Shown here: one piece after another, positions 29,028 through 52,967 of the stretch
Layout of the letters: every line of letters starts with the position of its first letter
How positions within the stretch are numbered: the first letter of the stretch is position 1
NCBI GenBank assembly: GCA_014898415.1
Contig: RCTD01000017.1
Coordinates: 743,001 to 807,000, forward strand
Source of the DNA: Stromatinia cepivora
Lineage: Eukaryota > Ascomycota > Leotiomycetes > Helotiales > Sclerotiniaceae
Direction of reading: 5' to 3'
Length of the DNA stretch: 64,000 nt
Position numbers and translations under genes: made by a program
The notes under the pieces: model-generated
What the model was told of the DNA's origin: nothing
Databases searched by the model: none
The model's input: the letters and a program-made list of their open reading frames with translations, nothing else

Positions 29028-31500
29028 GAGGCGAATTGAGTAAAACGTCAGCATGCGTCAATTTTCTTCCTGCAGTCTCTCGATATCGACTTCGACTTCC
29101 TCTCCAGTTCTACCGATTAATTCGCTCGTTAATTACATAATAACCTCCTCTATTCATGTTCAATTACCCGAACAGGATAGAAAGAGATTCGATTTTTTTT
29201 TCTTTTCACGTGAGCTTTGCTTACGTTTTTTATTGCGATGTTTTAAGGGGAGCTTGAATGCATGGTTATAGCATGGTGTTTACGGATTTTGATCTGCGGG
29301 GTATAGGGCTGGATGGTCGGGGGTACGAGGGTACGAATGTATATGTTACCATTCGATTCAATTCGACACTTTGTTTTGTCTATATAAATAGGGATTTGGG
29401 CGGAGATGGAATGGGATGGGAAGGGGTGGATGGATTTGTGTATATTATGATGGAATGGGGGTTCGGGGTGGATCGATGGGGTGAACGTGGATGTTGTGGG
29501 AGAGTGGAGTGGGTGAGGGCTGCATGGACGGATGGGGATATTATACCCTGTGGGAATATGGAATGATTAGTGCGGGAGGGAACTAATGGAAGAATGGGAT
29601 TAGATGGGTTTTTTTGGTTAAGTAGGAAATGGTTATTTTTTAACCGAGAAAAAAAAAGGGGTTGAGATGGATAATTAAGAGTATGTGATGTGTGTGAGAG
29701 GTTGGGAGGTTGGGAGATTGGTGGAGTGATAGAAAGTGGTTGAGATTCTAAGATGAGATGAGATGAGATGCTAGCGAGAGAGAAATTAGATGAGGAATAA
29801 AGCTGAGATTGAGATGATTGAGATGAAATGAAATGATTGATATCGAATTGTGTATAAAATGTGAGTGTATTTGTATTTGTAATTTGTTGTATGAAAAAAG
29901 AAGTAAATTATTAAAATTATAAAAAGGTAAAAGGGGTATGGTAAAATTATAGTTTCGGGATAGGATTTTATTATATTTCGTGGTTTTGTAATATTAGATT
30001 ATTGTTACAAATTGGTTAAGACTTTGAAAGAGAGTTAGTTGATGGATGATGAATGGTGGATTTTGAATATTGGATGATAAATAGAAGAGCTCGCTTATTT
30101 TAATTAATGAATTTTTGATTAGGGGGGTTATGGGTGGGTGGGGTTATGGGTGGGATGGGATTGATGGGGTTGATGGGATGGAGGGTTGATGGTATGAAAA
30201 TAGGAAAGTATAAAAGTATAAACGAGATATAAGAATAAATAGTAATTTGGAGATTTGGAATTTTTGATGTAGAAGGAAGGGAATTCTGGGTGAATTGTAG
30301 GTGAATTTGAGGTGGGGGGAAGAGAGTTGTGGGTGGAAGGGAGGGGAAGAGGAAGAGGAAAATTAAGAGGGTGGGAATGAGGGAATAAGAAGATAGGGGT
30401 AAGGGTAGGGTTAGGGGTAGTGTTAGGGGTAGCGATAGATAGTATGTATATATGAATGAGAAGAGGGGAAAAAAAGAAAAGAGAATTCTGAAAAAAAAAA
30501 AAAAAAAAAAAAAAAGAATAAATGATAAAGAATTTAAAAAGAAAAGAAAAGAAAAAAGAAAATAATTAAATAGATTTAAAAAAATAAAGGAAAAGTATAT
30601 AAATAAATAATAAATAAATTTTTAATTTTTTTTATAATTAGTTAAAATTTATTTGAACTATACAAAACTTATAGAATAATAAAATAACTAATATAAAGTA
30701 TTAATATTAATACGCGATAAATTGTAATATATAGATTTCGGTATTGGGATTGAGTAATGGGGGGAGTATAGATGGATTGGATAAAATTAAGATGAATAAA
30801 TAGATGATGTATTCGTTTGATTAGTTTTTGTAAAGATGAGATGATGGTTTTTGAGATTTCGTTAGGTTTGGTGGGGAGTAAGGGAGTGGTGTATTGATGG
30901 AAGAAATGATAGGATATGAAATAGATAGGATTATATGAAATGAGGAAGTGAAAAGGAGAGTGTTGATAAATAGATATAAACAGTGTAAGAGATGTTTAAA
31001 TATATAGATATTTACTAATTAAACTATTTTAATTTTCTGAATGTTTTAAAGGTTTCAAACGGATTGGATATTGTAGATGATTCTGGGGTTGGGATTCAGA
31101 GTTGTAGTTGTAGTTGTAGTTGTAGTTGTAGTTGTAGTTGTAGTTGTAGTTGTAGTTGTAGTTGTAAGTCTTTTCATTAGGATTTTGGAAAGTTTAAGGT
31201 GCGGAGGGGAATATTTTGAGATTGGTAGGAGTGGTGTGAGTGAGTGAATGGTTATTGAGATATTTTAGAGGTGTATGGTAGTAGGAGAGTATGATTGAGA
31301 GATGGTGAAGTGTGGGGGATGAGGAAGTTGGAGTAGGTGGGAGGTTTAAGGAATTTCTTGATGGGAGAATGGAAGAAAGTACTGATGGTGGAAAGGAATT
31401 ATATGGAGGAGAGAATAGGCTGGCTTGTTGTATCAGGGTATGCTAAGTGAACTGGGGAGTAGAAGGGGAGCCTTATAGGGAAGAGGAAGGGTAAATTAAT
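29028..31500. repeat. Cytosine-depleted, purine-rich strand with simple repeats
   Basis: For about 2.4 kb, especially 29240-31460, the + strand is built almost only of G, A and T; line after line has zero or one C. It includes a G-run tract at 30122-30160 with many GGG groups, GATGA repeats near 29752-29770, an A25 run at 30491-30515, a GGGGTTA/GGGGTA-rich tract near 30397-30432 and the GTTGTA array. No convincing gene lies inside. Its left part may be the 3' untranslated region of the kinase gene. Confidence 0.8.
31101..31166. repeat. (GTTGTA)11 hexanucleotide array
   Basis: Eleven perfect copies of GTTGTA in tandem, inside the C-depleted stretch. It is likely a variable microsatellite. Confidence 0.95.
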
Positions 31501-45086: not shown

Positions 45087-46254
45087 ATGTACCATTCGAA
45101 TCGCGACGCGCTGCCAATTTATCAGCCATCTGATGGCAGGTCCATGAGCTTTGGAGGAGAACCTCTTCCGTATCACGACAATGGCGATGACAGGGCGCAG
45201 ATGCCCAATTTCAATCCCCCACGACTCCCACCCATATCTTCATTGCTATCATCTTTACCACCGGGACAAGTTGAAGAGAGTCAGGCATTTGAGGACTCAT
45301 ATCCTCCGCCGTCGCAAGGGCCACGATCTCCAATGGCATTAGATAGGCCGATGTACCTACATCAACAAGAACGAAGTCCTCGAGAGCTTGAACGTTCTTT
45401 CAAACATTCGCAGAGCCCCCTCTCACCATACTCGACTTGTCCGCCGACGCCAATGTCAGATGTGTTCGCGACCAGGCAAGGATCTGTTGCAGCTCATCAC
45501 CATGGTCCATTTGCCCCTCCTAGGTATGTTTTTTTGGTATCCATCGCAATGGATGAAGGCTCATTATGCTCAAAGGGCCCCACAACCCCCGCTCCCACAG
45601 CCGGAATGTAGATTGGTCGTCATGCAACAACCAATTTCCGCGAGAGCTTGTGGATACGGAGACAAGGATCGTCGAATGATAGACCCGCCACCAATCCTGA
45701 CGCTTGAAGTATTTGATAAGGACACAGGCCAGGCTGTGAATCCAAAAGATAGAAAGAAGATTTTGAAGAATTTTATGCCGATAGTGCATTGCACATTATG
45801 GAACCCATATACGAATTGCGAGGACGACAAAATTGAGGGAAGTAATGACCGTCGGAACCAAAGGAGAATGGTAGGAACTATGGTCTGTAACGGTTTCAAG
45901 GCGTTAGATCCTCATGGGGATGAACGATTCTTCTTCACTTTTGCCGACTTATCCGTTCGATTCCCGGGCGACTATCGCCTCAAATTCAGATTAACATTGA
46001 TAGACCCAGCTGGGATGGGAAAGGGTCAAAGGAACGGAATCATGAGTCCACTGTTGAGCAATATTTTCAAAGTCCACAATGCCAAAGATTTTGAGGGTAT
46101 GAGACCCAGTTCGGATTTGGCAAAATCTCTTGTTAGTCAAGGGTATCCCAATATTCTCAAGATCAAGAAAGGAAATGCGAAGACAATCGCAATGGTTGGC
46201 CAAGGAGGACAGGAAGATGAGGAAGATGACGATGATGAGATGGGAGGTATGTAA
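45087..46254 (+). CDS. velC: Velvet family developmental regulator, VelC-like, 371 aa
   Basis: Exons 45087-45523 and 45576-46254, with a 52-nt intron (donor GTATGT, acceptor AAAG) joining FAPPR to APQPPLPQPECRL. The start is the ATG of MYHSNRDALP. Residues 1-155 are Pro/Ser-rich and disordered. The velvet domain (about 156-350) is uninterrupted: VMQQPISARACGYGDKDRR, DPPPILTLEV, a RRMVGTMVCNGF block, FFFTFADLSVRFPGDYRLKF and FKVHNAKDFEGM. VelB of Aspergillus carries a long insertion inside this domain, which is absent here, and VosA lacks the long N-terminus, so VelC is the best fit. Velvet proteins are NF-kappa-B-like DNA binders controlling sporulation and secondary metabolism. An acidic tail ends in MGGM; an alternative tail through a 37-nt intron is possible but too short to favour. 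Confidence 0.85.
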
Positions 46255-47292: not shown

Positions 47293-49369
47293 ATGAAGTA
47301 CGTTCTTGTATCTGGAGGTATGTATATGAGTCTATTTGTCTTGCTGTTGAATCGAAGAAAAGTATGATTTAACATGAATTTTAGGTGTGATTTCCGGCAT
47401 TGGAAAGGGCGTCATCGGTATGTTTCAACGCGAATTATAGGGAACGACGACGACGAGATATGGATGATACAAATGAAAATTGTACTGATGAAGTGGTTGC
47501 GCAACAGCCTCTTCCACCGGCTTGTTACTCAAGACAATTGGGTTAAAGATATGTTTCCCAAATATAATAAATTAGGCAGGACGCTAGGCTAACTTCGAAA
47601 GAACGTCACATCCATTAAAATTGATCCTTACATGAACGTTGATGCCGGAACCATGAACCCCCTCGAGTGCGTCTACTGTACCTATCAGCGAAAACATCAG
47701 GGTTGAGCTAATGGTCAAGTATAGGCATGGAGAAGTCTTCGTTCTTGATGATGGAGGAGAAGTCGACCTCGACCTCGGAAACTATGAGCGCTATCTCAAC
47801 ATCACACTCACTCGCGAAAACAATATTACCACGGGCAAGGTCTATCAGCATGTCATCGAACGTGAACGTAGAGGCGATTATCTCGGAAAGACTGTACAAG
47901 TTGTGCCACATTTGACCGATGCAATTCAAGATTGGATTGAGAGAGTTGCGCGAATTCCAGTTGACGATACAAAGGAGACTCCGGATGTTTGCATTATTGA
48001 ATTGGGTGGTACTGTTGGAGATATCGAGAGTGCGCCATTTATTGAGGCCATGAGACAATTGAAGAGAAGAGCGGGAAAAGGCAACTTCTTGCAAATTCAT
48101 GTTTCATTGGTGCCTGTTATTCAAGGCGAGCAGAAGACGAAGCCAACCCAACAAGCCATCAGAGACGTTGGTAGAGCTGGATTGGTTCCGGACTTGGTAA
48201 ACTCTCAAACTGAAATATGTCCAAGCTTTCGAGGCTAATTACTCCAGATTGCTTGCCGATGCGATGTTCCACTCGAAAAAAGCACTGTCGAAAAGATCGC
48301 AATGTTCTGTCAAGTTGAAAGCGAACAGGTCATTGGTGTACACAACGTCAAATCCACTTACCACGTTCCTTTACTCCTTGAACAGCAAGGTCTCATCTCG
48401 ACATTGAACAAAATCCTCAATCTCAACGAAATCCCAATGGCGAAAGCCCTTGTTGAGAAAGGTCAGAGAACATGGACTGAATGGAAATTCCTTACAACTC
48501 AGCAAGAGCGTTCATTCGAAGATGTTTCCATCGTTCTTGTAGGTAAATATACCAAGCTTCACGACTCATATCTTAGCGTCATCAAATCTCTCGAGCATTC
48601 GGCGATGCGATGCGGAAAGAAGCTTAATTTGATCTGGGTCGAAGCTGAACACCTCGAGGATGATGCTAAGCCTACCGAATTCCACAAGGCATGGCATGAG
48701 GTCTGCACTGCAGATGGTATTCTTGTCCCTGGAGGATTTGGTGATCGCGGAACAGAGGGTATGATTGCAGCTGCTAAGTGGGCACGTACCAACAAGACAC
48801 CTTATTTGGGGATCTGTCTGGGTATGCAAATTGCCGTCATCGAATTCGCTCGCAATGTCTGTGGCATCACTTCTGCTCATTCAGTTGAATTGAATGCCAA
48901 CGCATCCGATAAAGTCATTATCTACATGCCGGAGATTGACAAGGTAAACCTTGGTGGAACTATGCGTCTCGGATTACGTCCAACAGAATTCCAACCAGGC
49001 TCTGAATGGTCCCGTCTCCGTAAGCTTTATGGCGAGAAAACAGAGGTCCATGAGCGTCATCGTCATCGCTATGAAGTCAACCCCGAGTATGTTGACCGAC
49101 TACACTCTGGTGGTCTTGAATTCGTTGGAAAGGATGACAAGGGTGAGAGAATGGAGATCGTTGAAATAAAAGATCATCCTTGGTATGTAGGCGTACAATT
49201 CCACCCGGAATACCTCTCTCGAGTCTTGGCTCCAAGCAAATCATACTTGGGATTCGTAGCAGCAGCAGCAGGATGTTTGGATAAGATCACGGAGGATTGT
49301 TTGAAGGCTGAATTGGCCAACAGTGTCAATGGGAATTTGACGAATGGAATCAATGGTGTTACTATCTAA
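47293..49369 (+). CDS. CTP synthase, 584 aa, with an AT-AC intron
   Basis: Six exons: 47293-47317, 47385-47417, 47508-47548, 47605-47666, 47725-48196 and 48248-49369. Phases agree throughout for 585 codons. The first four are micro-exons of 25, 33, 41 and 62 nt encoding [31 protein letters not shown] and [21 protein letters not shown]. The N-terminal amidoligase part has the P-loop-like [11 protein letters not shown] and [10 protein letters not shown]. The C-terminal glutaminase has VPGGFGDRG, catalytic Cys401 in LGICLGMQ, and the His530/Glu532 pair in QFHPE. The enzyme makes CTP from UTP, ATP and glutamine, the last step of pyrimidine nucleotide synthesis, and polymerises into cytoplasmic filaments. 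The third intron has no workable GT-AG solution; AT-AC boundaries restore the conserved [12 protein letters not shown] exactly. Confidence 0.93.
47549..47604 (+). other. Candidate AT-AC intron in CTP synthase
   Basis: This 56-nt intron begins ATATGT and ends GAAC. A branch-like GGCTAAC sits about 15 nt before the 3' end. The donor is an ordinary GTATGT with the first G changed to A, and the acceptor AG is changed to AC, the combination known from U2-type AT-AC introns. The U12 donor consensus ATATCCTT is not present. No in-frame GT-AG pair connects the same exons. Confidence 0.7.
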
Positions 49370-50010: not shown

Positions 50011-52967
50011 TCACGCCTTCGTAATATCATAAACCAAAATCTCAATCTCACAAATAGCCGCTCTCGTTTCCTCATCCTCAAATTCCCTAAAAACCGTTAA
50101 TCGATCTTTTCCCATCAACTTCATATCTTCCACTGGAATACCCGTCTCTTTCTTGCTCAACATCCCTTTCATCTGATGCACCGTCGTTGTGGAAAGTAAT
50201 CCTGTTAAATATATAATACCTTTGAACGTTTCCGTCTCGCCTTGTTTATCAATAACTGTACAAAACAAAATGGTGCCCTTGAGTTCGGGAATCTCAAGCG
50301 CGTGGAGAAGAAATGATTCATCGAGGGTCTTTTGTAACCCGATGGGAAATTCGGGCCAGGTGGATCCTTTGTCTTTGCTTCTGCTTCTGCTTTTGCTTCT
50401 GCTTTTGCTTTTGTTTCTGCTTTTGCCTTTGCTTTTCTCCTCGCTTTTATCTTTTGGTTTTTCTTTGAAATCTTCCCCTCCACCCCCAGGAAGGGGTACC
50501 GGTTTTTTACCTTTCATTTCTTCAGGCGTAGCTGCAAAGGAAAAATCCCGTGGTCCTTTTGGGTTTCCTTTATCATGAGTCGGTCGTTTTTCACTTCCGG
50601 GTATTGGCGAAGGTGGAGGTTTGTCAGGATTCATGATTCGTAAATCACGCTTCTTAGGACTAACACCCAGTCCAGAATCCTTCCAAGGTTGCTTACCACC
50701 CGTCCCAGGATCTGGAGCTTCCTCATTTTCCCCGGGTTTATCATATGTGAACCCATCTGGAAACGGGCGGGGTATTGGGAACCTAGGTTTTTGTCTCTGG
50801 CCCCCGAATAGGCGTAGTGCATTTGTGACCTTAATAATATGCTTTCGATTTCTTATTATAAGTCCCAATGCCTCGTTCTCCTCATGATCAAGCACATTTT
50901 CAGGCGGGTTTTCCCGAGACCATTTTATAATTTCCTCGACCTTTTCATGGTTTTCGGTCGCATGAAACAGATCAACAAGACCGAGAGGATGGGATTCATA
51001 CCCTTTTACAGTGGGTCTGCCTAGACCTCCGCCTGGTTTTTTCGTGGTATCGTTCCACGGGGCTGGGAGCTCTCCGAGTTCAGGTTCGGGTGCATAAGGG
51101 GGGGGTAGGTCTGGTTTTATCGTTTCTCGCCAGAAATTCTTGAACCTTTGCGTCTTTCGATATAGGTCGTTGATACTGATTCGGCCTTCTCCTTGTACAA
51201 TCAAACAATCCATTACCAATTTGTGCAATGTATCGCTATATAGCCGGTTCCCGCGAACTTTTGCCCTCGCACCATTTTCGATATCTCTTTTTTTCCTATT
51301 CATGTAGCGTTCTGCTTCCGAAATCTCTTTATCAGCGTTGGCTTCGGGCTCAGCTGGCAGCTCGTCATATATTCCATTGTAAAAGTCAATATCGTCTTGC
51401 GTAGCAAGAGTATCTACTCCACCTGCTGCATCATTTTTGCCTAGCCAAGTTTTGGGTATTCTATAAAGTTTAAGCGCAAATCTTCCCACAGGGCCAGGTC
51501 GAGGGCGTCGGGCATCTGGCCATTCCACGTCACCCCTGTAAAAATATTCAGTATCCGGGTCTTCATCGTGTTCCCATTCGGTACAATGAATCATTTGCCA
51601 TACTATAAGTCCAAGCTGCCACACGTTGGAGTGGGTTCCATAGCGAAGATTGTTGAGGACATTTCCGTTGCCTGCCTCCCGCATGGTTTTAGGCTATATT
51701 AGAGTGTTAGTGTTTTCAATAAAGATGAAGCCAAAGTGGAAGAAGTATAATTAATGTTGTACCTACGCCTCTATCCATCCAAGGCCGTTCGAGTTCATTC
51801 GTTCGAGTTCTGAGTTGTTCCTTGCACACGAAGTCAATGACTGTGTGGTCAGGTATCAGATGATCGACTTACAGGTAGTTTATAAGGTTCTGTGCCACTC
51901 CATCTATAATGGAAATTGTAAGCGAGGTCTTGGTCAATAGGCACCTCTTTGGTTTGCCCGAAATCGCCAATCTATCATAGTATTAGAGAGTCATCGTATA
52001 ACCACAATTTGGCAACAGTACCTTCATTACAGGAATTCCCTTGTGTTCTTCGTCCCCTACGCCGTCGCCAATGAAAACTAGGGAATGGTAAACAAATTTG
52101 AAATCAAAAATGGGCTCGGAGTTTTAACTTACCATTTTGCGCTTTAAAATCAAAATGAACTATTTCATCTCGATCCCATCGTTCCTTATCAAGGTCTTCA
52201 TGCCCAGAATGCAGAGCATAAAGGCCGCGGGCTAAACAATGGAACACATCCCATATCTCAAATTCCTCAAAGTATAGTCTAGCAAGTTAACGGATATATG
52301 ACATCGCTGGTATGACGACTTACTTTTCCTTAAAATGATTACTTATTACATTATCAAGATCTCCTTGCCCACAATACTCTAAATAGATTCTTTGCACAGG
52401 ACCCTTGGCATCCGCGCGCACAGTACCAAGTCCAACATCATCATACAATCTCCGATACATCTTCACGAGATGCTGCGAAGGAATATGTCTCAACACCTCA
52501 TAAATCTTAGCCTCATTTATTATATCCCCCCAATCACCTGCCTGCTGCTTCACCACGCAAGTTTTGAAAGGCATTCGACCCGGCGTGCCTTCAGGAGGTC
52601 GACCATATCGCAATCGCCATTTTCCCGCTGTACCATTACCGCCTTCGCCGAGGATTTTCACTCCTTCCCATTCGGGTTCGGGTCCCATCCGGCTTTCTTT
52701 GCTCCAGAGGGGCTCGGATCCTAACCAGGCGTCTCCGCGAGCGCTGGCTTCGGCGGTTACCATTCGGTGCCATTTTGGTGGTGATTTGTCTAGTCGGAAT
52801 CCGAGTCGTTGTTCGGCTTCCGTGATGGTTTCTCCTGGGAGTAGTAATAGGCTAGGTGGGCTAGGCGTGGCAGGCGGGCTGGGTGCGTCAGATGGGTCAG
52901 GCGGCTCAGGGGGCTCAGGCTGCTCGGGCGGCTCAGGCGGGTTGGGAGGATTGGGCAGGTCACCCAT
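50011..52967 (-). pseudogene. Fungal protein kinase, intact motifs but one-base frameshift
   Basis: Six exons on the minus strand: 52967-52324, 52278-52134, 52077-52022, 51971-51873, 51820-51767 and 51693-50011. All but one junction keep phase. The canonical first intron (GTAAGT, GTTAAC branch, CTAG) leads into LYFEE, after which GAGGAATTGAG (52258-52268) is one base short; restoring one T would give the normal kinase reading WDVFHCLARGLYALHSG. Kinase features are all present: loop GEGGNGTAG (107-115), VVK Lys140, VHFDFKAQN as the catalytic loop, IGDFG as the Mg loop, SNVWQLG in the F helix. The N-terminus is a Pro/Glu tandem tract. The C-terminal 300 residues are Pro-, Lys- and Ser-rich with a KSRNKSKSRSKSRSRS run and a last 100-residue globular part. 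About 893 aa if repaired. It may be a mutation, an error, or an alternative donor at GTAATC. Confidence 0.7.

Follow-up and report, generated by a model that had tools for sequence, protein, structure and literature searches.

The window analysed here, a stretch of 64,000 nucleotides from Stromatinia cepivora, carries on its forward strand a CTP synthase gene of six exons (Table 1), whose product of 584 residues has no internal stop when position 47548 is joined to 47605. The Pfam domains CTP_synth_N (2.1e-120) and class-I GATase (1.7e-40) identify the product as CTP synthase, and it matches the CTP synthases of the PDB (best 2.6e-244). It is identical to the protein of Botrytis porri at 564 of 584 aligned residues (96.6%) and to that of Sclerotinia sclerotiorum at 500 of 506 (98.8%, the gaps of the S. 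sclerotiorum model being left uncounted). In the genome (55.7 Mb, 48 contigs) the protein found matches at two neighbouring sites that belong to this gene and none elsewhere; the gene is thus single copy and has no paralog to supply the enzyme. Directly upstream on the same strand lies a Velvet factor (PF11754, 1.9e-44; 45343-46254).

Table 1. Features of the CTP synthase gene, with positions counted from the first letter of the window.
Feature	Position	Strand	Basis
CTP synthase gene, coding region including introns and stop, 584 aa	47293-49369	+	gene model
Exon 1	47293-47317	+	gene model
Intron 1, GTATGT...TAG, branch-like TTAAC	47318-47384	+	sequence inspection
Exon 2	47385-47417	+	gene model
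Intron 2, GTATGTTTC...CAG	47418-47507	+	sequence inspection
Exon 3, 41 nt, 3' end ...ATT GGG TTA AAG (IGLK)	47508-47548	+	gene model
GT usable by in-frame GT-AG splicing only with exon 4 skipped (acceptor 47724)	47542-47543	+	chain test
Intron 3, AT-AC, 56 nt, phase 0, ATATGT...GCTAACTTCGAAAGAAC	47549-47604	+	sequence, frame
5' splice site of intron 3, ATATGT	47549-47554	+	sequence
Branch site of intron 3, GCTAAC, branch A 47592, 12 nt before intron end	47588-47593	+	motif
3' end of intron 3, AC (intron closes GAAC)	47603-47604	+	sequence
Exon 4, first codons GTC ACA TCC (VTS)	47605-47666	+	gene model
Intron 4, GTGCGT...TAG, branch-like CTAAT	47667-47724	+	sequence inspection
Exon 5	47725-48196	+	gene model
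Intron 5, GTAAAC...CAG, branch-like CTAAT	48197-48247	+	sequence inspection
Exon 6	48248-49369	+	gene model

Elsewhere in the window, about 2 kb of the forward strand (29500-31499) are nearly free of C, have a GC skew of 0.80-0.91 in four 500-base bins and contain tandem arrays rich in G and in A. GTTAG is repeated 24.6 times at 996-1116, and a tandem TTTGCT/TTTGCTTCTGCT array at 50374-50454 lies in an open frame of the reverse strand (50011-51693) that has no Pfam match.

Boundaries of intron 3

Introns 1, 2, 4 and 5 have GT-AG ends, and intron 3 alone has AT-AC ends. The initial annotation had placed an AT-AC intron at 47549-47604, and both its sequence and its coordinates were borne out: the join of 47548 to 47605 gives GLKVTS, which no other cut of 56 nt yields when the other introns are held fixed. 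From base composition alone, the chance of AT..AC at a fixed cut is about 0.005. If intron 3 is retained, the frame reads ICFPNIIN and reaches a stop at the ninth codon.

The further statement that no GT-AG pair joins the flanking exons in frame held with the other introns fixed, where no in-frame, stop-free GT-AG or GC-AG join was found (donor within 47509-47604, acceptor no farther than 47666, minimum intron length 20 nt). Beyond that setting it needs a refinement: the GT at 47542, after ATTGG, is in frame with an acceptor at 47724 when exon 4 is skipped. A wider chain test allowed up to three GT-AG or GC-AG introns of at least 35 nt each anywhere between exons 2 and 5; the 28 GT/GC sites and 16 AG sites made 15026 chains, from which 816 distinct in-frame, stop-free proteins were obtained. 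These were scored against a profile built from 137 homologs that have the exact join, from which P0001, P0014 and P0051, all of which we take to be Sclerotiniaceae, were left out. The AT-AC product scored 1129.4 bits versus 1089.4 for the best of the 816 (40 bits lower; the best eight listed end at 1084.3), a comparison that favours the AT-AC product by design since the profile members were picked for the exact join. What the profile test shows is that there is no GT-AG solution near the AT-AC product.

Three protein searches, from each of which the best 120 of 7998 scored proteins were taken, gave 218 distinct homologs. GLK/V[ST] or close variants were joined exactly in 144 of them and not in the other 74. 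These counts bear on two other readings of the locus. The real mRNA could be a GT-AG one in which exon 4 is skipped by splicing out 47542-47724, the arrangement that the gene model of S. sclerotiorum has. Such a join is in frame and stop-free, and the first part of its product is identical to that of SS1G_09708 (P0014), the protein published for S. sclerotiorum. We nevertheless hold this to be very unlikely, as the skip loses 23 residues of the conserved stretch joined exactly in the 144 homologs, its donor GTTAAA is poor compared with GTATGT, the donor in introns 1 and 2, and the gene is single copy. The lost residues presumably include active-site residues. P0014 also lacks a second internal stretch and thus looks like a faulty model; we read the start of SS1G_09708 as the output of a gene caller limited to GT-AG introns and faced with this architecture.

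Intron 3 could instead end at 47601 with AT-AG termini. The cut 47549-47601 is in frame and open, and AG is the usual 3' end of introns, but the resulting protein would carry an extra Asn (GLKNVTS) that is missing from all 144 exact homologs, including Botrytis porri. AT-AG ends are moreover disfavoured, as described for U12-type introns (PMC3584512), and we find this ending hardly plausible.

Homologous gene models and taxonomic spread

A gene model that reads through a phase-0 GT-AG intron is expected to open the insertion with Val and close it with Lys, Gln, Glu or a stop, whereas read-through of an AT-AC intron should give Ile or Met at the start and His, Tyr, Asn or Asp at the end. The upstream side was readable in 18 broken models, with Ile after the junction Lys in 15 and Met, Ala and Val in one each; the Ala (P0145) and Val (P0174) models were set aside on this side, as their break is apparently not at the intron 3 junction, and two of those counted as Ile (P0055 and P0118) carry more doubt, since little text follows the Ile. 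Four models (P0129, P0182, P0209 and P0217) have Ile-Cys, as ATATGT reads. On the downstream side, readable in 29 broken models, the residue before VS/VT was His in 22, Tyr in 4 and Asn in 3, residues that cannot tell AC from AT; one of the Asn models (P0217) is uncertain and was set aside on the 3' side, the next residue being Thr instead of Val. Neither side could be read in 35 of the 218 models, which were set aside; among these, P0192 shows HGSSSKV, which fits neither an AT...AC nor a GT...AG reading. Taken as translated intron ends, the residues of the broken models (16 of 18 upstream sides with Ile or Met, all 29 downstream sides with His, Tyr or Asn) fit AT...AC and not GT...AG, in a set whose members are not independent, five of them being Lachnellula.

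Under a slightly different criterion, the five junctions of the gene were broken in 41, 57, 72, 8 and 2 of the 218 homologs, and in 1, 21, 37, 5 and 2 of the 175 homologs with an intact N-terminus. The third, AT-AC junction fails most in both sets. This bears on whether a sequencing or assembly error could have made AT...AC out of GT...AG, which a sequence backed by one assembly only would allow. We give such an error almost no credence: two compensating errors would have to fall in just the right places, the remainder of the gene is intact, and in other fungi it is this junction at which gene models break most, with AT...AC-like read-outs.

Many of the exact homologs occupy a single unbroken frame on contigs roughly 1.9-2.8 kb long, from the sources jgi and lgn, and these contigs look like spliced transcripts; other homolog contigs of that size are broken (P0029, P0172 and P0188). 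Published CTP synthase models of relatives (P0014, P0020, P0021, P0023, P0024, P0027 and others) either lack an exon or begin only with MNVDAG, an apparent consequence of gene callers being unable to handle an AT-AC intron. The AT-AC intron would thus account for the recurrent misannotation of CTP synthase at a single site across many fungal genomes. A scan with a degenerate motif for relatives' DNA gave at least 118 stretches on prokaryote contigs, the 80 matches listed being archaeal or bacterial by title, and no match on viral contigs.

All 17 fungi looked up among the homologs were Pezizomycotina. Within the same homolog set (best 120 of 7998 in each search), the informative broken models were distributed over seven Pezizomycotina classes: Leotiomycetes (Lachnellula, Erysiphe), Pezizomycetes (Rhizina), Lecanoromycetes (Lasallia), Lichinomycetes (Phylliscum), Geoglossomycetes (Geoglossum), Dothideomycetes (Setomelanomma, Verruconis, Aureobasidium, Botryosphaeria) and Eurotiomycetes (Exophiala, Capronia, Trichophyton, Ophidiomyces), together with Thelocarpon, Sarcosagium and Piccolia, which are incertae sedis. 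No Sordariomycete was recognised by name in a non-systematic look through these models. Rhizina falls outside leotiomyceta according to its lineage record, so that the intron would date to the common ancestor of these classes. As between an old, shared intron and one that arose recently, the pattern of gene-model errors suggests the former and leans clearly to conservation. Intron 3 is thus probably old in Pezizomycotina, and we propose that its AT-AC ends were kept because a move to GT-AG needs both end bases to change together.

Splice signals and spliceosome

The first nine bases of intron 3, ATATGTTTC, are those of intron 2, GTATGTTTC, apart from base 1, and with G at +5 the donor is a U2-type 5' splice site beyond its first base. 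The branch site is also U2-type, and its distance from the intron end is within the range of the GT-AG introns of the gene (12, 19, 13 and 9 nt from the branch-like A in introns 1, 2, 4 and 5, respectively, compared with 12 nt in intron 3). A GT-AG-ended version of the interior, GTATGT-N22..52-GCTAAC-N4..14-YAG, was enriched in the genome, with 167 matches versus 62 for the reversed control, which indicates that the interior is native to this genome. The initial annotation had classed the intron as U2-type AT-AC, a reading that gains support from the +5 G of ATATGT and from GCTAAC with its branch A 12 nt from the end.

We infer that intron 3 is very probably a true AT-AC intron and a substrate of the major (U2) spliceosome. 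U1, followed by U6, would recognise the bases downstream of the first (ATGT), U2 would pair with GCTAAC, and the first A and last C would stand in for the G-G contact that normally links the two ends of an intron. Genes for U6 snRNA (1.4e-20, with ACAGAGA) and U2 snRNA (1.6e-28 and 3.2e-12, with GTAGTA) were found in the genome. U11, U12, U4atac and U6atac gave no genome match, with control genomes equally silent for all four; since U6 and U2 were silent in them too, the controls are uninformative, and the lack of a match for the four minor snRNAs is thus weak evidence. In the literature, one survey reports no convincing minor introns in Ascomycota (PMC10639083), another gives U12 splicing as missing in Ascomycota and Pezizomycotina (PMC2846911), and AT-AC is named as second only to GT-AG in efficiency for a mutated yeast intron (PMC6726248).

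Intron 3 might still be U12-type and be removed by a minor spliceosome persisting in the fungus, given its AT-AC ends, its ATAT at positions 1-4, and a branch A whose 12 nt from the end are inside the 11-13 nt optimum (PMC3584512). We judge this highly improbable: the donor ATATGTTT, with GT at positions 5-6, fails RTATCCTT even with one C to T change allowed (PMC2846911), the branch sequence is GGCTAAC and not CCTTAAC (PMC3033335), the same four minor snRNAs are unmatched in the genome (with the controls silent too), and minor introns are reported absent from Ascomycota (PMC10639083).

Genome-wide, AT-AC patterns were in no excess over the control (60 matches vs 71, and 119 vs 1002, the latter control count probably reflecting a repeat), and the strictest pattern had 6 matches vs 7 in the control. 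There is thus no sign of a class of AT-AC introns in this genome. Many matches of the 60-match pattern contain a dispersed repeat with the core CACGAATCGTGAACCACAGGAGGCTAACCACGTGATAC, which occurs on many contigs; the core is not found in the 64,000-nt window at up to 3 mismatches. From 120 match regions, a subset of the matches in which two overlap, we kept joins that were open for 25 codons on each side, and 59 passed. Among the 40 joins listed, L132 (P450-like) and L172 (desaturase-like) fitted GT-AG splicing better by eye. The 25-codon filter drops the CTP synthase intron itself, which has 19 open codons upstream, and so the screen is silent on its uniqueness.

Origin and comparison with known systems

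A tentative scenario, to which we give a minor share of probability, is that intron 3 is a fossil of the minor spliceosome, a U12-type ATATCC donor turned into ATATGT and trapped as AT-AC across Pezizomycotina, and that it may gate CTP synthase. The intron would have passed to the major spliceosome no later than the loss of the minor one in ascomycetes. A rare conversion of U12-type into U2-type AT-AC introns has been proposed, in which C to G at +5 precedes A at +4 or T at +6 and leaves the intron trapped, since both ends must change together (PMC2831892). ATATGT is ATATCC with C to G at +5 and C to T at +6; it therefore has the look of a converted U12 donor, which makes such a fossil possible. 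Because retention runs into a stop at the ninth codon, the intron may act as a slow-splicing gate on the enzyme. Minor introns are described as biased away from phase 0 (PMC10639083), and intron 3 is in phase 0. Another possible origin is a GT-AG intron of which both ends changed.

AT-AC introns have been reported in ascomycetes, in Fusarium graminearum (PMC3577648) and in fungal surveys (PMC7072748, PMC6176087). They make up 0.019% of annotated fungal splice-site pairs (PMC7072748) and 0.09-5.19% in an RNA-seq study of fungal pathogens (PMC6176087). The term CTP does not occur in the main text of the F. graminearum study (PMC3577648), although its gene list, a supplement, may overlap with the present case. 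The available text of PMC9597501 mentions AT-AC in general terms only, and the AT-AC of PMC3091305 is a string of polyketide domains and not an intron. We found no report of an AT-AC intron in CTP synthase among open-licence full texts, and one may have been published elsewhere.

As a single-copy metabolic gene with an intron seemingly common to seven classes, CTP synthase could provide a natural test of the trapped-intron idea (PMC2831892), and also of whether minor introns survive in disguise after loss of the minor spliceosome. Intron 3 shares with U12-type AT-AC introns its terminal dinucleotides, its ATAT start and its short distance from branch to end, and differs from them by U2-type positions 5-6 and a U2-type branch site. 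It resembles U2-type AT-AC introns such as human SCN4A intron 21, which has AT-AC ends, G at +5 and major-spliceosome signals, and whose kind is described as suboptimal and trapped (PMC2831892). Unlike that intron, it is short and fungal, with a strong GCTAAC branch site and a putative dependence on the major spliceosome, and it lies in an enzyme of an essential pathway, in a phylum reported to be without minor introns. AT-AC splicing in Saccharomyces takes place in an ascomycete without the minor spliceosome, in the SUT635 protointron of a non-coding RNA and at an alternative RPL30 junction of a normal GT-AG intron (PMC6726248), whereas intron 3 is predicted to be a constitutive and apparently conserved coding intron. 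Intron 3 would belong to a known kind, made notable by the apparent depth of its conservation in a phylum reported to lack minor introns.
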